Of a stretch of DNA of 64,000 bases, positions 4,892 through 46,502 are shown in pieces. Location of the stretch: positions 1-64,000 of the forward strand of contig NZ_FOMW01000010.1 of NCBI RefSeq assembly GCF_900112755.1, read 5' to 3'. This DNA comes from Sulfitobacter brevis. GTDB lineage: Bacteria > Pseudomonadota > Alphaproteobacteria > Rhodobacterales > Rhodobacteraceae. A program made the translations under genes and the position numbers. The notes below the pieces were generated by a model that worked only from the letters and a program-made list of their open reading frames with translations, ran no database searches and was not told the DNA's origin. Positions within the stretch are counted from its first letter, which is position 1. Each line of letters opens with the position of its first letter.

Positions 4892-6091
4892 TCATGCGGC
4901 ATGCTCCCTCGGTGGTGCGCGAGACATGGGTTTCTGACCGCGCCGAAAGATCTCGATGATGCGCATCGGGCCGCCGCAGCAGGGGCATGGTTCGCGCAGG
5001 GTGAGCGGGATGATCTCGGCTGCCGGTGTAGGCGGGGTGGCCTGTTCTGGATGCGGTGTCCCGAGCAATGTGCGGATATTTGCGATATTGACCTTGCGGG
5101 TCGCGCTGGCCAGCAGGCCATAGTGCCGGATACGATGGAAGCCATCGGGCAGAACATGGATCAGGAAACGGCGTATGAACTCGGGGGTGGCCAACCGCAT
5201 CACCTTTTGCCTGTCACCAGACTTGATGCGGTAGTCCTTCCATCGGAAGGAGACCGTCTCGGCATCAGCGCTGACCAGACGGGTGTTAGAGATCGCCACT
5301 CGGTGGGTGTAGCGGCTGAGATAGGCCAGCACCGCGTCAGGCCCGCCGAAGGGCGGTTTGGCATAGACCACCCAGTCGGTTTTACGGAATGGAGCGAGCC
5401 ATGCAGTGAAGGCGCGCGTGTCCGCCAGCCCAGCCAGATCGTTGAAGAAGACCAACTGCCCGGAGCGCTGCAGGCCCATCAATCCTTCCAGAAACAGACG
5501 TCTGAACAGACGCGACAGCACCCGCACGTGAAGAAAGAACCCCGGCTTGCAGGCGATCCATCTCGTGCCATCGGGCGACAGGCCGCCGCCCGGCACGATC
5601 ATGTGGATGTGAGGGTGGTGGGTCAGTGCTGACCCCCAAGTATGCAGGACGCTGGTGATGCCGACCCGTGCGCCGAGACGTTTGGGATCTACCGAGATAG
5701 TCATTACCGTTTCTGCCGACGCCCTGAACAACAATCCATAGATTGCTTTCTTGTTCCAATGGGCGATCCGGGCAATCTCCGCTGGCAGGGTAAAGACCAC
5801 GTGGAAATATTCCACCGGCAGCAGGTCCTCGGCGCGCGCTTCCATCCAGTCGCGCGCCGCTGGCCCCTGGCATTTGGGACAATGCCGGTTCTTGCAAGAG
5901 TTGTAAGAGATGTGATGGTGGCCGCATTTGGCACAGCCAGCCACGTGCCCGCCGAGCGCCTCGGTTCGGCAGGCCTCAATGGCTGACATCACCTTGAGCT
6001 GGGAGAGGCTGACATGCCCCGCATTGGCCTGCCGCCACGCAGGGCCATACTTGCGGAGGATGTCAGCAAGCTCCAGCTTTGGACGGGACAA
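4892..6091 (-). CDS. IS91-family HUH (rolling-circle) transposase
   Basis: 399 residues. The N-terminal zinc-binding part shows CAKCGHHH and SCKNRHCPKC. The HUH metal site lies in HPHIHMIVPGGG, and the catalytic Tyr region is YLSRYTHRVAISNTRL. A further Cys motif (PCPCCGG) sits near the C terminus. These are the hallmarks of single-strand transposases that nick, replicate and rejoin at oriIS. The length is normal for the family and no stop or frameshift is seen. Downstream of and probably co-transcribed with the recombinase at 6104-6991. Confidence 0.9.
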   Translation of the reverse strand: MSRPKLELADILRKYGPAWRQANAGHVSLSQLKVMSAIEACRTEALGGHVAGCAKCGHHHISYNSCKNRHCPKCQGPAARDWMEARAEDLLPVEYFHVVFTLPAEIARIAHWNKKAIYGLLFRASAETVMTISVDPKRLGARVGITSVLHTWGSALTHHPHIHMIVPGGGLSPDGTRWIACKPGFFLHVRVLSRLFRRLFLEGLMGLQRSGQLVFFNDLAGLADTRAFTAWLAPFRKTDWVVYAKPPFGGPDAVLAYLSRYTHRVAISNTRLVSADAETVSFRWKDYRIKSGDRQKVMRLATPEFIRRFLIHVLPDGFHRIRHYGLLASATRKVNIANIRTLLGTPHPEQATPPTPAAEIIPLTLREPCPCCGGPMRIIEIFRRGQKPMSRAPPREHAA

Positions 6092-6103
6092 CGTCCGCGC
6101 CTG

Positions 6104-6991
6104 TCATTCCAGACTTCGCTTCACCGTCTGATCCTGCAGCTTGGCCAGCATCTCGTAGGGGCTGATCGTGTCGCGGATCGTCTTGGTGGCCACATGGGTG
6201 TATCGCGCGGTGGTCGTCAGTTTGGCGTGGCCGAGCAGGACCTGTATCACGCGCACGTCCGTGTTGGCCTCCAGCAGATGCGTCGCAAAGCTGTGCCGCA
6301 ATGTGTGCAGCGTCGCGGCCTTCTTCACGCCTGCCATGTGCTTGGCCGATGTGAATGCGCGGTTCAATTGGCGTGGTGAGATCGGGTTAATCTTCGGCTT
6401 ACCCGGAAACAGCCACCCTTCCGGCCGCGCCTCGCGCCAATAGGTGCGCAGCAGCTCCAGCAATCCCGGCGAGAGCATAACCTTGCGGTCTTTCTGGCCC
6501 TTTCCCTGCTCAATATGGATCAGCATGCGGTCGCTGTCGATGTCGTCGATTTTGAGGTTACAGACCTCGGCGGCCCGCAGACCTGCGCCGTAGGAAATGC
6601 TCAGTGCAGCGCGATACTTCAATCCCGGCCCTGGCGTGGCCATCAGAATATCAGACACTTCCTCGACGCTGAACACCACGGGCAACCTGCGCGGCTGTGT
6701 GCGGAACTGCATGTAGCGCTTCATCTCCTCGCGCCCGCAGGTCATGCCGAAGAAAAACCTCAGCGCGACAATGCGCGCGTTGAAGGTCGTGGGCGTGATT
6801 CCGGCATCGGTCATATGGAGTTGATAGGCGCGCAGGTCCTCCGGTGAGGCCGTATCCGGTGATCGCCCGAGAAAAGCGGCGAAATCCTTGATTGCTCGAA
6901 TGTGGGCCTTCTGAGCTTTATCGCCCATCCCGCGAATGCGCATGTCTTCGATCATCCGCTCGCGCAGCGGCGTGGTTCTCTCCTCCGTCAT
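6104..6991 (-). CDS. Tyrosine recombinase of the IS91 element
   Basis: 295 residues with a SAM-like N-terminal DNA-binding domain (about 1-90) and a catalytic domain showing the Arg of GAGLRAAEVCNL, the HTLRHSFATHLL box (HxxR), the LLGHAKLTTT His and the nucleophile Tyr in ARYTH. This is the companion integrase found with IS91 transposases rather than a housekeeping XerC/D. A strong AGGAGGT ribosome site (minus strand, about 6995-7001) lies four bases before the ATG. Directly upstream is a 14-8-14 inverted repeat (7001-7036) with the architecture of a recombinase core site. Confidence 0.88.
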   Translation of the reverse strand: MTEERTTPLRERMIEDMRIRGMGDKAQKAHIRAIKDFAAFLGRSPDTASPEDLRAYQLHMTDAGITPTTFNARIVALRFFFGMTCGREEMKRYMQFRTQPRRLPVVFSVEEVSDILMATPGPGLKYRAALSISYGAGLRAAEVCNLKIDDIDSDRMLIHIEQGKGQKDRKVMLSPGLLELLRTYWREARPEGWLFPGKPKINPISPRQLNRAFTSAKHMAGVKKAATLHTLRHSFATHLLEANTDVRVIQVLLGHAKLTTTARYTHVATKTIRDTISPYEMLAKLQDQTVKRSLE

Positions 6992-18881: not shown

Positions 18882-19577
18882 ATGCTGAGCGTGCAGGACC
18901 TGACCCTGCACTACGGTCGCTCTCAGATCCTCAACGGGATAAGTCTTATGGCGGCACGCGGCGAAGTCACCTGTGTGATGGGCACCGATGGCGTAGGCAA
19001 GACCAGCCTGATCAAGGCAATCTGCGGGACGCATGCCAGATCCGGCGGCACCGTATCGCTTGATGATGAGGTGCTGCCCGTTCTGCCACCACATTTGCTT
19101 GCCCGGCGCGGCATCGCCTGCGTGCCGCAGGGCCGTGAGATATTTCCTTTGCTAACGGTCAAAGAGAACCTCGAGACTGGTTTTGGCTGTTTGCCCGCTG
19201 CGGACCGGAGGGTGCCCGACGAGATATTCGAGCTCTTTCCAGTGTTGAACGAAATGAAATCACGTCGCGGGGGCGATCTCTCGGGTGGCCAGCAGCAACA
19301 GTTGGCGATTGCCCGCGCCTTGATCACCCGCCCCAAGCTTCTGTTGCTGGATGAACCGACCGAGGGCATTCAGCCCAACATCATCCAACAGATCGGGCGC
19401 GTGATCAGCCAGCTTCGCGAGGAAGGGCAGATGGCGATCATCCTGGTCGAGCAATATTTCGAGTTCGCCTACGAGCTGGCTGATAAATTCGTCGCGCTGC
19501 GGCGCGGAGAAGTGATTCTTTCAGGCAGGAAAGGTGAATTTTCGAAACGGGATTTGCTTTCGAAAGTCTCGATTTAG
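18882..19577 (+). CDS. urtE: Urea ABC transporter ATP-binding protein UrtE
   Basis: 231-residue LivF-type ATPase, last gene of the urt operon, three bases after urtD. Walker A reads GTDGVGKTS (most UrtE proteins have Arg-Asn where Thr-Asp stands here, but the catalytic Gly-Lys-Thr is kept). The signature LSGGQQQQLAIARAL, Walker B LLLLDEPTEGIQP and the switch His-equivalent region ILVEQYFEFA (Gln in place of His, as usual in LivF proteins) are present. Confidence 0.94.
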   Translation: MLSVQDLTLHYGRSQILNGISLMAARGEVTCVMGTDGVGKTSLIKAICGTHARSGGTVSLDDEVLPVLPPHLLARRGIACVPQGREIFPLLTVKENLETGFGCLPAADRRVPDEIFELFPVLNEMKSRRGGDLSGGQQQQLAIARALITRPKLLLLDEPTEGIQPNIIQQIGRVISQLREEGQMAIILVEQYFEFAYELADKFVALRRGEVILSGRKGEFSKRDLLSKVSI

Positions 19578-40808: not shown

Positions 40809-41222
40809 ATGCGCGCAACAATCTGGAGTGGTCTCGTCTTGGGGCTTGGCACCGTGGGGCTCGTCGCCTGCACAGAGCCGTCGATGCCTGATCGCACGGA
40901 CGGGGCGGCGTTTTTTGCAGATAATTGCACCTCTTGCCACGGTGGGCAGGGGCGCGGCGATGGCCCGCTGGCGGCAGGGCTGCCCGTTGCGCCTGCGGAT
41001 CTGACAGTGCTGAGCCGTCGCAATGGCGGCACTTTCCCATCTGCCCGCGCGCTGAGCTATATCTACGGTGACCCCGAGCAGGCCCACCTCGCGCGGGTTA
41101 TGCCGCAGTTTGGCGGCGCGATGGCAGAGGATTTGGTGCCGGTCCAGTTTGACGGCATCATGACGCCGACGCCGCGCGTTCTGGCCGGGCTGCTGGCCTA
41201 TCTTGAAAGCGTTCAGGAGTAG
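40809..41222 (+). CDS. Lipoprotein c-type cytochrome
   Basis: 137 residues. A signal peptide with lipobox LVAC (Cys21) anchors it to the membrane. One heme c site is seen, CTSCH at 40-44, with Met in RVMPQFGGAM as probable sixth ligand. It is a class I monoheme cytochrome, likely an electron carrier in the periplasm; its partners are unknown. AAGGGATC provides a modest ribosome site. Last core gene before the tRNA-Ala accessory region. Confidence 0.9.
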   Translation: MRATIWSGLVLGLGTVGLVACTEPSMPDRTDGAAFFADNCTSCHGGQGRGDGPLAAGLPVAPADLTVLSRRNGGTFPSARALSYIYGDPEQAHLARVMPQFGGAMAEDLVPVQFDGIMTPTPRVLAGLLAYLESVQE

Positions 41223-41361
41223 TCGTTTCGGCAATGCCGGCTGAAAAGCAGGCTTCGTCGCACAAACACGGCTGAGAACCTTCCAACTTGGCGTTCACCG
41301 ACAAGCGGCAAGTAGCGAGCGCCTGCCGGCTCTCAGGGCGCGGCTGCGTAAATCTAATGCC

Positions 41362-41393
41362 GGGAACAAAGAAAATGGGGGAGCATAGCGGGA
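41362..41393. repeat. Distal attachment-site copy (tRNA-Ala 3' end)
   Basis: Matches 46297-46328 at 30 of 32 positions by hand alignment; the core GGAGCATAGCGGGA equals the reverse complement of the tRNA T-arm and acceptor 3' end. Mismatches are at 41367 and 41379, plus a C/T at the left edge base 41361. It lies 140 bases behind the cytochrome gene. Confidence 0.65.
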
Positions 41394-41493
41394 ACTCCAC
41401 CAAATTTTTAAACTATTGATAAGGCTTAGCAAACTGATGTGCGGCTGTTGGTACGTCACACCTCAGTGTCACACTTGGCAAGGCTGCAAGGAT
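41384..41493 (+). repeat. Repeat C, copy 1 (left end of element 1)
   Basis: Starts CATAGCGGGAACTCCACC and ends TTGGCAAGGCTGCAAGGA. The second copy is at 44647-44756, starting CATAGCGTGAACTCCACC and ending TTGGCATGGTTTGCAAGGA. The copies are diverged but clearly related along about 110 bases. Immediately downstream here is the IS3 transposase remnant. Confidence 0.6.
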
Positions 41494-42081
41494 AACCTTC
41501 AAGTTCATCGGGTGGGGTTGGTATTATCTCAGCACGATCCTGGATGATTACAGCCGCTACATTATCGCTTGGAAGCTTTGCAACCGCAGCCCGACAGAGT
41601 ATTTCGCAGCAATGCACGAGAGGGAAGCATGCGAGCTGAAGACGTAACAGACACGATCGAACTGGCGCTGATGGCATCGGGGTGCGACCCAGCCACCGTG
41701 CGTCACAAGCCACGCCTGCTCAGCGACAACGAGTCTTGTTACATCTCAGGTGATCTGGCGGAGTGGCTTGAGGGGCAAAGCATGGAGCATGTCCGCGGCG
41801 CGCCATTCCACCCGCAAACGCGGGGCAAAATAGAACGCTGGCACCAGACCATGAAAAACCGCGTTCTGTCGGAAAACGACTATCTGCCCGGCGACCTTGA
41901 GCGCCAGATCGGCGCATTCGTCGAGTAGTACAACAATCAGCGTTACCACGAGAGCCTGAACAACGTCACACCCGCAGACGTTTACTTTGGACGCGATAAA
42001 GCAATTCTCAAAGAAAGGGAAAGGATCAAGAAACGGACAATCCAGCAACGCCGCTTGCAACATCAAAAACAAGCAGCATAA
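41494..42081 (+). pseudogene. IS3-family transposase (orfB) remnant
   Basis: One frame gives TFKFIGWGWYYLSTILDDYS and RYIIAWKLC; after an insertion of about 46 bases and a frame change the integrase core continues MRAEDVTDTIELALMASG, HPQTRGKIERWHQTMKNR and DLERQIGAFVE. It then meets TAG at 41926-41928, and resumes [20 protein letters not shown] to TAA 42079. The Asp of LLSDN and Glu of KIERW from the DDE triad are visible. No intact terminal repeats were found. The remnant is dead in several ways. Confidence 0.8.
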
Positions 42082-42254
42082 TCAATCAGTCAAACGATCC
42101 AGACCCTCCAATGCTCAAGCCGCTCTGATGTCCAACTTTATATGACGACGGACAGCATTCGTAGTTTCGCTCCAGATAGCTGCCTGCTTGAGCCAGCGCG
42201 GAGTAATTCTGGGATCTGGCAAGCCGATGGTTTCGATGTTCGTCGTCACGCGCA

Positions 42255-43364
42255 TTATATCTGAGCGCCGCACCCGCGGAAAAAGGCAAGCATCTCGTCG
42301 CTCAGCAATCCTTTTCCTGTGGCCATCTGCATTAACTCAAAGGCACAACTGTTGTTTACCTCAACGACAACGGGTCCATCCTCGGTCAACGCAATATCGG
42401 TTGAGCCATACCTGTTCGCCCCATGCAGAAGCGCAACCTTTTTGTTCAGCTCCCTCAATTCCGACCACATGGGCAGTTGCTCACCAATCAGCTTGCGTGC
42501 GGAATTTGGCAGGCTGTCGAATTCAATACGGGTTCCGTCCTGCGTGTCTACAATCGTCAAGACCGTTCCGGTCTCAGGGTCCAGCTGACACAGTAGGTTG
42601 CCAGGCCGCCAGAAATTATCAGCCACGTTGCTCTGCATTGGAAGCTTCAGCGCCGTGAAAGGTACATTCAACCCGTCCTTTCCAATCAGGTTTAGCGATC
42701 GCACAGTACCAATTGCATCTGTGAGGCCATCAAAAAAACTGTGCGGGGTTAGGCACTTTTGAATAAGGTAACTCTGGTCACTAAAGATCGTTTCCGCCAA
42801 TTCCACGAAGGTGACCGGGTCCTGACCGTCAATCAAAATATGAGATTCGGTACAGCCAATGATGCGGAAGGCCCCAGCGCTCCACATGCCCCTCAACGGC
42901 TTGGCGAAAAGTGGAAAAGCTGGTCCTGCGTCAAAGAAAGACTTGAGCTCTTCCGCCGTTTCCAACTTCGGCACATCAGGAAAGCTACGCGGCCCTTGGT
43001 CGAAAACAGCGGCGATTGTAGGAACGGGCAGATCGTGATGGCTCAAAAAGCTTGAGGACAACCATTTGTCTTCAGTGACTGCCCACCAGCTTGTGTCATT
43101 GCAGGCATTGGAGATCGGCCAGTGGATGTGTGCGGAAACAAACCGGTTGCGCTCATCGTCGCTCCAGCGATTTCTGTCATAGAGTTCATATAGCATGTAT
43201 TCGTAGAATTGAAGCTTACCCTGGCCACGTTTTAGCTTTCGGTAGTCAAACCAAATAGCTACCGGGTTTTTCCCACACCGGCGAGCAGCTTTGACGAGAG
43301 CCGGAGCGACCTCGATTTGCTGCTTGGTGCCGATCATGCCAATATCTTTTGCCTGTGCGTTCAT
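42255..43364 (-). CDS. ATP-grasp protein (sugar-transfer-associated type)
   Basis: 369 residues. The C-terminal ATP-grasp features are FPLFAKPLRGMWSAGAFRI (ATP-binding Lys), GTVRSLNLIGKDG and YGSTDIALTEDGPVVVEVNN (metal-binding Asp/Glu/Asn). The family resembles proteins found in polysaccharide and teichoic-like gene clusters (sugar-transfer-associated ATP-grasp), which link carboxylates to amines or sugars; the substrate here is unknown. ATG 43364 has a GAGGG ribosome site; the frame to 43421 lacks one. Cargo of element 1, without the glycosyltransferases usually found nearby. Confidence 0.75.
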   Translation of the reverse strand: MNAQAKDIGMIGTKQQIEVAPALVKAARRCGKNPVAIWFDYRKLKRGQGKLQFYEYMLYELYDRNRWSDDERNRFVSAHIHWPISNACNDTSWWAVTEDKWLSSSFLSHHDLPVPTIAAVFDQGPRSFPDVPKLETAEELKSFFDAGPAFPLFAKPLRGMWSAGAFRIIGCTESHILIDGQDPVTFVELAETIFSDQSYLIQKCLTPHSFFDGLTDAIGTVRSLNLIGKDGLNVPFTALKLPMQSNVADNFWRPGNLLCQLDPETGTVLTIVDTQDGTRIEFDSLPNSARKLIGEQLPMWSELRELNKKVALLHGANRYGSTDIALTEDGPVVVEVNNSCAFELMQMATGKGLLSDEMLAFFRGCGAQI

Positions 43365-43644
43365 ATTTCCCTCATGCCTCTGATAGTATTGATTGATAGA
43401 AATTAAATTAAACTGAGCCAATCAGAAAATTATGTAAACAGTTTGGCCTGATTGTGGCATGCGAGGCTCCTTGAATCGACAACCATTATCTGCTTCGCCC
43501 TATGTCGAGCCAAGCGGGCTGAGGCCTTTGATAACGGCGCTATGTCTGGGCGATGGAGGGGGCAGCGGAGGTATTGGCGTGATAGCGCGAGGGCAGACAA
43601 TCCTTAAGTGACCCGGTAGGGGAGATCCCTTCTTACAGTACCCT

Positions 43645-44510
43645 CTAAATCTGCTTCCATAAGGTCTTGATTGCTACCGTAGGGAACTGTCCGAACTGTT
43701 CTTTGAATGTGGCTTTCGTAACGTCTTGGAGTTCTACAATACGGTCCAGCTGTATTATGAAGCGGTCGTGTATTGGTAGGGCTGGCACTCCCTGCTCCAC
43801 AAAATGCAGCATGATGCGCTCTGCCATCTCGCTGTCTTTGCGCTGCAATACCCAACCGGCTTCCGAATCAAGGGCTCCCGGCAGCATTGAATAGGCGTCG
43901 ATCACCGTTTGCCGGAACTTCTCTGCGGTCATGCCATGCTTGGCACAGTGGAAGTCACTCGGCTCATTGTGTCGCATCGATTTAGCGTTCAGCAACGCAA
44001 TAAACGTATTCTTTGTGTGGCCTCGCAGCGTTTTGTTTCCATGTACCCCGGTAACCAAGGCGTATGGGTCGTCAGGGTTGGTCAGCCCTCGCCCTGAAGA
44101 AAGTATGGCCGCGTGTAAGCCCGTGAAGTCTGCTTCAACTGTCGGTAGGCCATTTATGGTGGTGTACTTTCTTGGTGTTTGTTCTCGAGCTGCCACCAGC
44201 CGCCATAATATCTACCGCCGTGTCCGAAGGTGTTATTGTTGAAGACGCGATAAAGTCCGGTGGCCTGCCAATACGTCTATCTTCGAGGCTAACGTCTTTT
44301 ATGGTGTAACCGGTAACGCTCAGCTGCAAGCTCCAGATCGGACATCGGGCCATCATCGTTGATCTGGTCTATCCGCATCGACAGCGTTTTTTTGAAAACT
44401 TGGTGGATCAAGGCTCTGAGTTCGTCCTGACGCAACTCCGACAGAACCATGCTGTACCGCTGGGGCAGCACCACATGATGTAAGGTGACGTGCCAGTTGG
44501 CCTGCGAATT
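43645..44510 (-). pseudogene. Decayed mobile-element gene, replication/polymerase-like
   Basis: The 183-codon 3' part (43645-44196) reads INGLPTVEADFTGLHAAI, KNTFIALLNAKS and LPIHDRFIIQLDR. Upstream in a second frame lie ELRALIHQVFKKTL, ERYRLHHKRR, two TAG stops, then LYRVFNNNTFGHGGRYYGGW and WQ; a frameshift near 44185 joins the two. The order RxYGGWWQ, then INGxPTVExDF.GLH, then a late HD motif is one I associate with phage and plasmid replication-type proteins, but the family assignment is from memory and weak. The gene is broken by at least two stops and one shift. Confidence 0.55.
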
Positions 44511-44561
44511 TGTATACCGTGTTCCTGACGACGGGCGAATGAAAGCACGAATCGGGCTGCG

Positions 44562-44648
44562 TGGGGCTTTGGAAAGGGGCCAGCGAAAGTAGAAGGGGAT
44601 GTGCCCCAAACGGAATAAGTACGCATCAAGATGCCGTTTTGAGCCTCA
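44562..44648 (+). repeat. Repeat A, copy 1 (right end of element 1)
   Basis: 87 bases starting TGGGGCTTTGGAAAGGGGCC and containing TACGCATCAAGATGC near the end. It aligns without gaps to 46171-46257, about 73 of 87 identical by hand count. It runs straight into repeat C copy 2 through a degenerate attachment core (CTCATAGCGTGA at 44645-44656). Confidence 0.65.
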
Positions 44649-44756
44649 TAGCGTGAACTCCACCACAATTTTAAGCTATTAAGAAGACGTAGAAAACTGT
44701 TGTGCGTTTATTCTTGTGTGACACCCTGGCGTTACACTTGGCATGGTTTGCAAGGA
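44647..44756 (+). repeat. Repeat C, copy 2 (left end of element 2)
   Basis: Second copy of the 41384-41493 sequence, directly abutting repeat A copy 1. It marks the start of the second, smaller element, which carries the acidic protein gene at 44885-45853. Confidence 0.6.
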
Positions 44757-44884
44757 CGCAGGTTGGGTATGTTGATCAGCTTGGCCACGGGCTGCCCTCC
44801 GAATTTAGAAGACTCCGGCGCGATTCGCTCCTACGCTAATTGAATTACCTGCGATTGTCCGTTTCTAATAGAAGGATTTTTATC

Positions 44885-45853
44885 ATGGGCAAACCCAAGC
44901 TTAAAAAGTTCAAAGGTGACAACGACAATAATATCTTCGATATCGATATCCCGGACGTCAAAGTGGATGGCAAGAAGGGTTTCGACGCGGTGATACTACC
45001 CGGCGAGATCGGGGACTACACAATCGAGCAGAAAGGCAAGAAGTTCACTCTGACCGACGACGATGGTGGCATCTACAAGCTGAAGAAAATTGAAAGTGTG
45101 GTCTTCGACGGCGACACCGTCGGGACCGCCGACGACATGGTCTTCAACACAAGCCTTGGCACTGTCATGAGCCCGGACACCTCTATCGATCTTTCCGGTC
45201 AAACCACCGGTGGCAACCTCCTAGTTGGCTCCGGTATCCCCGCCAGTGATTTTGTCGTCGTCCGCAGCGAGGCCGACGGGCTGGAACTCGGACTTAGCAT
45301 CATCTATCGGCAAGGTCCCTCGGTCGATCCGGTCTCGGTCGATCCCGACGGCACGGTGCACTTCCTAGTCAATGACGGTAGCCAGTCAACGGTGAACGGT
45401 TCCTCTGACGATAATGCAGGCCGGGCCGCTTGGAGTTTCCAATACTCCGCCATTACCGGTTTGAACGGCGAAACCACCGATCTTGGCGATTTCACATTTA
45501 TGCTTAAGATCGACGTGGATGTGACGGAAGGTGTCGATTACCGCACCTTCACCATGGTCGACCCTGGCTTTGCCATTCCCAATGCCACCGGCATGTACTG
45601 GGTTGATGAAGACAATACCCCTGTCATCGGCGACGACGGTGGCAACACCAATGTCGCGCAAAATTCTGAGAACTTCGCTTTTGGCTTTATTAACAATTAC
45701 ATTGATGCCGATCCTGACACGCCCGGCATGCAATCCTATACGGGAGACGGCTTCCCTGAGGGCGAGTTCGATATCGTGCTGGAAGCCTACAATGCGGGGG
45801 GCGATCTAATTGCGTCGAACCACATCGTGGTGGATGTTTTCGATTTTATCTAG
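44885..45853 (+). CDS. Acidic secreted-type protein, function unknown
   Basis: 322 residues, very rich in Asp and Gly and free of Cys. The N-terminal region (KGFDAVILPGEIGDYTIEQK, KGKKFTLTDDDGG, VVFDGDTV) resembles the linker found next to RTX repeats in type I-secreted proteins. The rest looks beta-rich with no GGxGxDxxx repeats. There is no classical signal peptide, and the C terminus (VVDVFDFI) is hydrophobic-acidic, as in some type I substrates. ATG 44885 follows AGAAGGATT; the codon at 44840 is unsupported. Cargo of element 2, followed by hairpins. Confidence 0.7.
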   Translation: MGKPKLKKFKGDNDNNIFDIDIPDVKVDGKKGFDAVILPGEIGDYTIEQKGKKFTLTDDDGGIYKLKKIESVVFDGDTVGTADDMVFNTSLGTVMSPDTSIDLSGQTTGGNLLVGSGIPASDFVVVRSEADGLELGLSIIYRQGPSVDPVSVDPDGTVHFLVNDGSQSTVNGSSDDNAGRAAWSFQYSAITGLNGETTDLGDFTFMLKIDVDVTEGVDYRTFTMVDPGFAIPNATGMYWVDEDNTPVIGDDGGNTNVAQNSENFAFGFINNYIDADPDTPGMQSYTGDGFPEGEFDIVLEAYNAGGDLIASNHIVVDVFDFI

Positions 45854-45862
45854 AACGCATCA

Positions 45863-45884
45863 AGGGGCGGTTTACGCCGCCCCT
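45863..45884 (+). terminator. Stem-loop terminator after the acidic protein gene
   Basis: AGGGGCGG (45863-45870) pairs perfectly with CCGCCCCT (45877-45884) over a six-base loop, nine bases after the stop. No T run. A second perfect eight-pair hairpin (GTGCTGAC / GTCAGCAC, 45926-45949) follows. Confidence 0.6.
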
Positions 45885-46170
45885 AACCCTGATTATCAGC
45901 CTTCGGCCTGTCCGAAGAATAAGGCGTGCTGACACCCTTGAGTCAGCACTCTTCGGGCAAGTCGCCGATCACCAGACCACTGCACTGCATGGCGCTGGGT
46001 CACCGGCAACGGCTCCTCTGCCAATATCGGTCTACTTTGTACGGCACTATTTTTGCGGCGAATTTTTGTGATGGGGTATCAATGGACGGTCTCGTTCTTG
46101 TTTCCCCCAAAGTACCCTAAGGGCACCGTGTTCCTAACGAGAGGTAAATGGAAGCCCGTTCTGGGCTATT
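45885..46170. other. Gene-less stretch in element 2
   Basis: No supportable gene. It contains the hairpin at 45926-45949 and a shorter one at 45902-45916 (TTCGG / CCGAA). The region leads into repeat A copy 2. Confidence 0.4.
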
Positions 46171-46257
46171 TGGGGCTTTGGAAAAGGGCCAGCGGAAGGA
46201 GATGATGCTGTGCCGCGAACGGTATAGGTACGCATCAAGATGCATTTTTGTGCCTCA
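46171..46257 (+). repeat. Repeat A, copy 2 (right end of element 2)
   Basis: Partner of 44562-44648, same length, about 84 percent identical by hand count. It lies 40 bases from the attachment-site copy in the tRNA gene, where the right end of an integrated element is expected. Confidence 0.65.
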
Positions 46258-46296
46258 CGCGTGCGGCACACCGTTACAATGCTTTTCTAAGATGCT

Positions 46297-46328
46297 GGGA
46301 AGAAAGAAAATGGTGGAGCATAGCGGGA
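46297..46328. repeat. Proximal attachment-site copy overlapping tRNA-Ala
   Basis: Partner of 41362-41393. Bases 46311-46328 are the last 18 bases of the tRNA-Ala gene, so integration leaves the tRNA functional. Confidence 0.65.
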
Positions 46329-46386
46329 TCGAACCGCTGACCTCCTGCATGCCATGCAGGCGCTCTCCCAGCTGAGCTAATGCCCC
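46311..46386 (-). tRNA. tRNA-Ala (anticodon GGC)
   Basis: Read on the minus strand the 76 bases start GGGGCATTAGCTCAGC and end GCTATGCTCCACCA, with encoded CCA. The anticodon stem CCTGC/GCAGG encloses the loop ATGGCAT, giving anticodon GGC (reads GCC). The T loop GGTTCGATCC and the D stem are standard, and the acceptor stem GGGGCAT/ATGCTCC pairs with one G-T. Its 3' end is the integration target of the elements on its left. Confidence 0.95.
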
Positions 46387-46502
46387 ATTCCAGATCAGTT
46401 GACCTGTTGTGGTGGCGCGTAGTTATGCGCAAGCGGGGGCGGGATCAAGCGGAAAAATCCATTCCGCTGTGATTGTTTGGAAAACGATCCCGCCCCTGTC
46501 GA

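Follow-up and report, generated by a model that had tools for sequence, protein, structure and literature searches.

Tandem remains of two probable genomic islands with truncated integrase genes at a tRNA-Ala(GGC) gene of Sulfitobacter brevis

How did two related elements, neither of which carries an intact integrase gene, come to lie one behind the other at the 3' end of a transfer RNA (tRNA) gene in Sulfitobacter brevis? The locus (positions 41362-46328) is part of a window of 64,000 nt, which is the whole stretch of DNA that we analysed, on contig NZ_FOMW01000010.1 (GCF_900112755.1). A first-pass annotation had seen here two related elements in tandem at tRNA-Ala(GGC), with common ends and different cargo, and had interpreted them as integrase-free mini-elements that depend on mobilisation in trans. 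The tandem is borne out by integrase-bearing relatives at the same tRNA gene. The second idea had to be given up, because one of the common ends (termed A) is the truncated start of the element's own integrase gene. We consider it about 90% probable that the locus holds what is left of two autonomous genomic islands, members of one family, that had inserted in tandem. It is not a new integrase-free element, but a decayed tandem of a known island kind.

As described earlier, about 4.9 kb are flanked by a direct repeat, which measures 37 nt (41357-41393 and 46292-46328; 34/37 identical, 92%). The right copy consists of the 3' end of tRNA-Ala(GGC) (18 nt) and 19 nt of trailer, and 17 of the 18 tRNA-end nucleotides are kept in the left copy, so that the core stands at both ends as it does in the island family described below. 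The outer left attachment site (attL) is composed of the half-site TGGGGGAG at 41376-41383, with one mismatch to the tRNA copy TGGTGGAG, the overlap CATAGCGGGA at 41384-41393, which is identical to the tRNA copy, and the inverted half-site ACTCCACCA at 41394-41402. Inside, the two repeats called C and A lie where the annotation had placed them (C, 41384-41483 and 44647-44746, 100 nt, 76% identity; A, 44516-44648 and 46125-46257, 133 nt, 79% identity). When the A1-C2 junction was searched against its own genome, the matches were the junction itself, A2, C1 and one of 21 bp at E 0.59. A and C are thus confined to this locus in their own genome and are not ordinary interspersed repeats; the genome-wide scattering that would have pointed to such repeats was not found. 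The same junction matched 7 of 60 genomes at E<=0.1 (own genome, 35 others of the genus and 24 of the class), namely the own genome and six marginally, over 21-32 bp, and it had no match in phages and plasmids (blastn, E<=0.01).

The A ends are truncated starts of integrase genes beside the right attachment site (attR), and the missing integrase is therefore a matter of decay. We searched 394 genomes of the bacterial family, drawn evenly from a larger group, with two candidates scored per genome. Three of them matched the A end at E<=0.001: the own genome, one with a match of 27 bp, and a genome of another genus (G296) with the whole 133-bp end (E 6.8e-29). In G296, too, the A end adjoins tRNA-Ala(GGC), beyond which FYDLN_acid and SprT-like genes follow as in the window; similarity to the window continues through the R arm and the tRNA (90% over 130 bp), and the A end forms the start of a 504-codon open reading frame (ORF) that runs off the contig. 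This frame matches Phage_integrase above the cut-off (1.7e-8) and DUF6538 below it (5.5e-5), and several listed homologues of this integrase bear PF20172 (DUF6538) outright. Measured against the integrase of locus L083, about 104 codons remain at A1, where the start codon is lost, and about 42 at A2, where the start codon is kept and one stop stands at the end; neither of the two window elements has a full-length integrase. The second stub begins at 46245, and its distance to the tRNA 3' end at 46311 fits the integrase-start spacing of 65-70 bp in intact islands, as a stub only. The earlier statement that the locus is without an integrase therefore stands for an intact gene, but not for the 5' stubs in A1 and A2. 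Differences from L083 at the three codon positions number 7/2/9 for A2 and 7/10/7 for A1. Over these 40 codons only, the pattern agrees with what would be expected if A1 had been a pseudogene for longer than A2.

No full-length relative of the L083 integrase turned up in the own genome: nothing matches at E<=1e-30, and relaxing the threshold to E<=1e-15 adds just the two stubs. At E<=1e-30 relatives occur in 29 of the 394 genomes, the own not among them. Within the genus the threshold of E<=1e-15 is passed by 17 of 62 genomes, among them the own one, in which the stubs alone match. Near-full-length genus integrases that align from residue 1 (36-44% identity) stand beside tRNA-Ala(GGC) in G062 and beside tRNA-Ser(GCT) in G002, G063 and G030. 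The latter gene is a further target, which a related integrase adjoins in three genus genomes (L183, L184, L185). The integrase found no match in plasmids (tblastn, E<=1e-30) and three phage records at 26-32%. Elsewhere in the window, positions 4892-6991 (minus strand) hold a transposase, which we take to be IS91-like, and, adjoining it, a tyrosine recombinase whose similarity to the integrases of the islands is only weak. This recombinase (6104-6991) was considered as a helper and rejected, since it adjoins the transposase and matches the island integrase family weakly.

From the 29 matching genomes 20 integrase loci were fetched. In 13 of them an intact tRNA gene stands 65-70 bp from the codon that aligns with residue 1, namely tRNA-Ala(GGC) three times, tRNA-Cys(GCA) eight times and tRNA-Ser(CGA) twice. 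A second copy of the core (17 or 18 of 18 nt) was present in 11 of the 12 loci scanned for it and delimits islands of 5.6-14.5 kb at tRNA-Ala, -Cys or -Ser genes; none was found in L174, a short stretch. Outside the set of 11 delimited islands are L178, where a tRNA-Ser adjoins the integrase and the contig is too short for the far end, L167, L168 and L176, which have no intact tRNA beside the integrase, and L179-L182, which are partial integrase matches, two with a tRNA-Cys nearby. The distal ends of the islands have in common an inverted half-site, a TAAGCCATTGA-like block and TGTGTCACAC-like repeats; in L163 and L164 the inverted half-site is ACTCCACCA, the complement of the tRNA end TGGTGGAG.

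These distal arms tie the C repeat to the family. We built a profile from the 11 intact islands, all from other genera, excluding the first 16 core nucleotides as well as the window itself. On the 64-kb window it matches C1 and C2 (E-values in the table), the next match having E 0.91. C1 scores 32.3 bits and C2 25.6 bits, whereas the highest score among 100 dinucleotide-shuffled windows was 10.5 bits. After retraining on the three alanine islands the values are 3.1e-9 for C1 and 1.8e-8 for C2. Because the profile matches the window at exactly C1 and C2, C is the attL arm. Applied to 120 further loci (1.49 Mb, partly overlapping, E<=0.05), the profile found only L074, twice. This locus belongs to the same genus and has a 578-aa integrase at the same tRNA gene; its core recurs 5.0 kb away. 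L163, L164, L172 and L074 are intact islands at tRNA-Ala(GGC), the full-length, integrase-bearing relatives that the annotation had anticipated. All four also carry a serine resolvase gene (by Pfam in L163 and L164; 72% to L164 in L172; ORF 4920-5582, by reading, in L074). A serine resolvase is listed for L176 as well (18919-19476, reoriented), and tblastn with three of the resolvases found none in the delimited Cys/Ser islands.

Between the two units the attachment site is broken. The A1/C2 junction at 44647-44665, at which a degenerate att core had rightly been noted, reads CATAGCGTGAACTCCACCA. Compared with attR, 63 bp are absent between CCT(CA) and CATAGCG, with a CA microhomology, and what is missing is island 1's R arm together with the half-site TGGTGGAG. 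Positions 46261-46390, including the tRNA, are 90% identical to L083 over 130 bp. Since the inner site lacks the 63 bp, we infer that neither element should be excisable alone. Judged by sequence, the outer pair appears to keep attL and attR, as neither unit alone does, and it could be the only pair able to recombine. With the outer pair as the sole survivor, the 4.9-kb compound would be at most a relic resembling a cis-mobilizable element (CIME).

These observations suggest the following history. An intact island encodes a tyrosine integrase with a DUF6538-like N-terminus, which would recombine the core TGGTGGAG - CATAGCGGGA - ACTCCACCA, that is, two inverted half-sites around the overlap, with the tRNA 3' end and thereby restore the tRNA. 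The half-sites and arm repeats would be the binding sites in this reaction. After insertion the integrase gene stands about 65-70 bp from the tRNA, and TGTGTCACACC-type repeats mark the other arm, at the far end. The first to insert was probably island 1 (C1-A1), which lost most of its integrase; what it carries today is a piece of an IS3 element, the ATP-grasp gene and the remnant of a phrog_4756 gene. Island 2 (C2-A2) would have entered at the regenerated tRNA end, its integrase later being reduced to about 42 codons. A 63-bp deletion at the CA microhomology probably took the inner half-site together with the R arm. On this reading the elements of the window are decayed relatives, and not working members, of the integrase-bearing island family. 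The features of the locus are collected in Table 1.

Table 1. Features of the tandem and the basis of their assignment (window coordinates)
Feature	Position	Strand	Basis
Outer attL of the tandem	41376-41402	+	Sequence reading; 37-nt repeat; same layout in intact tRNA-Ala islands
C1, attL arm of island 1, with GTCACACCTCAGTGTCACAC repeats	41394-41490	+	nhmmer, 11-island distal-arm profile, E 2.4e-9
IS3-family transposase remnant	41497-42154	+	blastn to plasmid IS3 transposases, best about 78%; rve_3 2.9e-5, just under cut-off
ATP-grasp protein, 369 aa, intact frame, island 1 cargo	42255-43364	minus	PF14397 2.1e-28
phrog_4756 gene, C-terminal remnant	43645-44196	minus	phrog_4756 positions 244-430 of 440, E 3.5e-25
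Integrase stub 1, overlaps A1	44322-44633	minus	Residues 2-105 of L083 integrase, tblastn 55%, 1.6e-24; genome search 3.0e-24
Inner att relic, CATAGCGTGA + ACTCCACCA	44647-44665	+	Compared with attR 46256-46318; 63 bp gone
C2, attL arm of island 2	44657-44750	+	nhmmer, 11-island profile, E 3e-7; weaker in two of three retrained profiles
Acidic protein, 322 aa, intact frame, island 2 cargo	44885-45853	+	No domain above curated cut-off
Integrase stub 2, overlaps A2	46117-46245	minus	Residues 1-43 of L083 integrase, tblastn 81% over 42 aa, 1.9e-16; genome search 6.9e-16
R arm, integrase start codon to tRNA 3' end, TGTGCC/GGCACACC repeats	46246-46310 (65 bp)	+	90% to L083; same position in intact islands
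tRNA-Ala(GGC), target gene	46311-46386	minus	ARAGORN; 3' 18 nt = attR core

Several results weigh against an origin from two autonomous islands. No genome was found with the same tandem or with either island alone, and the order of the integrations is therefore not observed. No intact island was seen to carry the ATP-grasp gene or the gene for the acidic protein. Training on the eight Cys/Ser islands yields a profile that picks up C1 (2.4e-5) and misses C2, and when the half-site is left out of the profile C1 is retained at 7.9e-5 while C2 falls to E 0.0085. An R-arm profile misses the R arm of the window at A2; its best window match (E 0.013) lies in the C1 arm. Moreover, the repeat reaches 2-7 of 10 trailer nucleotides in most intact islands as against 19 nt in the window, and the searches of the bacterial family scored 2-3 candidates per genome.

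How else could such a locus arise? A single island might have been duplicated by unequal recombination and have then diverged, as both ends are common to both units. The repeat search shows no interior common to the units, however, and A1 and A2 are 79% alike, each being slightly closer to the other-genus copy (80% and 86%), which makes this origin very unlikely. Even less probable are two satellite-like mini-elements, defined by their common C and A ends, that as a rule have no integrase gene and are moved in trans by an integrase encoded elsewhere. Such elements would account for the conservation of both ends in both units with different cargo in each, and for the identical overlap in the outer cores. 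But the A end is integrase coding sequence and not a bare end motif; it recurs in one other of the 394 genomes (two candidates per genome), with an integrase attached, no full-length relative of the L083 integrase was found in the own genome, and the inner att site lacks 63 bp. That interspersed repeats or insertion-sequence debris gathered beside the tRNA by chance is hardly credible, the IS3 remnant inside the tandem notwithstanding, given that A and C occur only at this locus of the genome and that C matches the attL arms of other islands.

The decayed tandem might also retain some mobility, which is a variant of the two-island origin and not exclusive of it. The outer sites attL1 and attR2 would be recognised by the integrases of incoming islands of the family, and the 4.9-kb compound would move as a unit, as a working CIME. 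The overlap CATAGCGGGA is identical on both sides, the C1 arm and the R arm are present, and an intact island occupies the same tRNA gene in a genome of the same genus. On the other hand, the left half-site reads TGGGGGAG for TGGTGGAG, the G062 integrase is 36% identical to that of L083 and the G062 core reads CCTAGCGGG, and no excised or moved copy has been seen. We regard this variant as possible but doubtful. It is unlikely, too, that a functional outer pair lets an incoming island of the family excise and carry the integrase-less cassette and so spread the ATP-grasp and acidic-protein genes. If it were true, decayed neighbours at tRNA sites would be a cargo reservoir for defence islands.

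The cargo announced by the first-pass annotation, an IS3 remnant, an ATP-grasp gene and an acidic-protein gene, is all present. The ATP-grasp protein has eight relatives with 79-91% identity. Three of the 62 genus genomes, the own included, carry the gene at E<=1e-80, and the relative in G001 is 89% identical. DNA similarity to G001 (85%) spans 42153-43497 only, that is, the gene and short flanks, and similarity to L084 ends at the gene; confined in this way, the ATP-grasp gene looks like a cassette of its own. The G001 copy has no significant C-arm match and no tRNA in its 4.1-kb locus. Likewise, 48 loci from an ATP-grasp alignment search of genome contigs gave no A or C match at E<=0.01, and the 13 of them scanned for tRNAs had no tRNA-Ala. 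The phrog_4756 remnant, whose N-terminal part is lost or out of frame, is 52% identical to a Thioclava plasmid gene and found no match in the PDB. For the acidic protein there are seven relatives at 56-66% identity and weaker ones with RTX or cadherin-type domains, and none among the remaining 61 genomes of the genus (E<=1e-20) or in plasmids. Scans of viral contigs with phrog_4756, the ATP-grasp protein, the acidic protein and the integrase confirmed no relative.

The intact islands carry different loads. We called 71 ORFs of >=80 aa mechanically in the 11 islands, 11 of them integrases, and scanned 30 of the remaining 60 with Pfam. Restriction, methylase or Hachiman-type domains occur in 7 of the 11 islands: a BamHI-like enzyme and a methylase in L163 (which also has a second, weak integrase-like protein), an EcoRII enzyme and a methylase in L169, HSDR_N/N6-methylase with a specificity subunit in L170, an MmeI_N piece and AAA_21 in L172, HamA adjoining a DEAD helicase in L177, ResIII with methylase pieces in L175, and a methylase with a weak HNH in L166. 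Among the 25 PADLOC families listed, of 385 matched by 36 cargo proteins, 24 are methyltransferase or specificity models. The 30 cargo proteins scanned with Pfam show no relaxase or transfer domain. In the window islands no such defence gene was recognised in domain searches, which did not include PADLOC. The largest island, L173 (4022-18534, reoriented; 14.5 kb, tRNA-Cys), seems by reading to hold cytochrome bd oxidase and ABC-transporter genes.

Occupancy of the target site varies within the genus. The tRNA-Ala(GGC) gene with its flank was found in 60 of the 62 genomes, and 40 of these loci were fetched. In 15 of the 40 selU lies across a gap from the tRNA, as in the window, and the other 25 gave no selU match. 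The gap, 5.6 kb in the window, ranges from near-empty sites (about 117 bp in L071 and 193 bp in L067), of the kind that the annotation had expected in relatives, up to 8.6 kb with varied genes. In the window this gap includes a small cytochrome c-like gene (40809-41222, label from reading), which stands outside the att repeats, on the selU side of the left one, and has no relative in the 40 loci by tblastn. Several genus genomes have an altered second copy of the tRNA-Ala 3' half and its trailer, 111-114 bp away from the actual gene: L045 (14409-14522), L046 (13980-14094; both reoriented) and, in similar form, L026, L028 and L033. This copy is perhaps a tRNA pseudogene or an att remnant.

What can be learned from such a ruin? 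Common att arms and a leftover piece of integrase gene can together give the false impression of a mobile element without an integrase. The comparison has also yielded an anatomy of the integrase family, consisting of the core, the two arms and the position of the integrase. With its help the boundaries of such islands can be located by profile search beside tRNA-Ala, -Cys and -Ser genes. Possibly neither this family of integrases nor the anatomy of its att sites has been described before. A literature search of 5.39 million papers for the one name 'DUF6538' did not find it, and a search combining genomic island, tRNA-Ala, Rhodobacteraceae and integrase gave no match.

The closest relatives of the window islands are L163, L164, L172 and L074, which share the tRNA-Ala(GGC) target, the core layout, the arm repeats and the integrase family, and differ in their full-length integrase and other cargo. 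Among published systems, the small islands I23, I44 and I55 at tRNA and transfer-messenger RNA (tmRNA) genes, as far as the available text of PMC12595487 describes them, likewise have a tyrosine integrase at the tRNA or tmRNA end, direct repeats, and variable cargo with phage-defence systems and no recognised transfer genes. They belong to other hosts, whereas the family described here has a DUF6538-like integrase and targets tRNA-Ala, -Cys and -Ser; the window copies, in contrast to I23, I44 and I55, are decayed and have no recognised defence gene. The tandem itself recalls CIME accretion. In this scheme, as given in the available part of PMC5704250, an element loses its integration genes and keeps its att sites, and another element enters at the restored gene end, so that a tandem results. 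The CIMEs treated there derive from integrative and conjugative or integrative and mobilizable elements, while the 30 proteins scanned from the relatives found here included no transfer gene, and the window tandem, unlike that of the scheme, has a broken inner att site. The likeness lies in the loss of the integration genes, the later integration at the restored gene end and the resulting tandem, and the origin that we propose for the window tandem is the accretion scheme of PMC5704250 in the form available to us.

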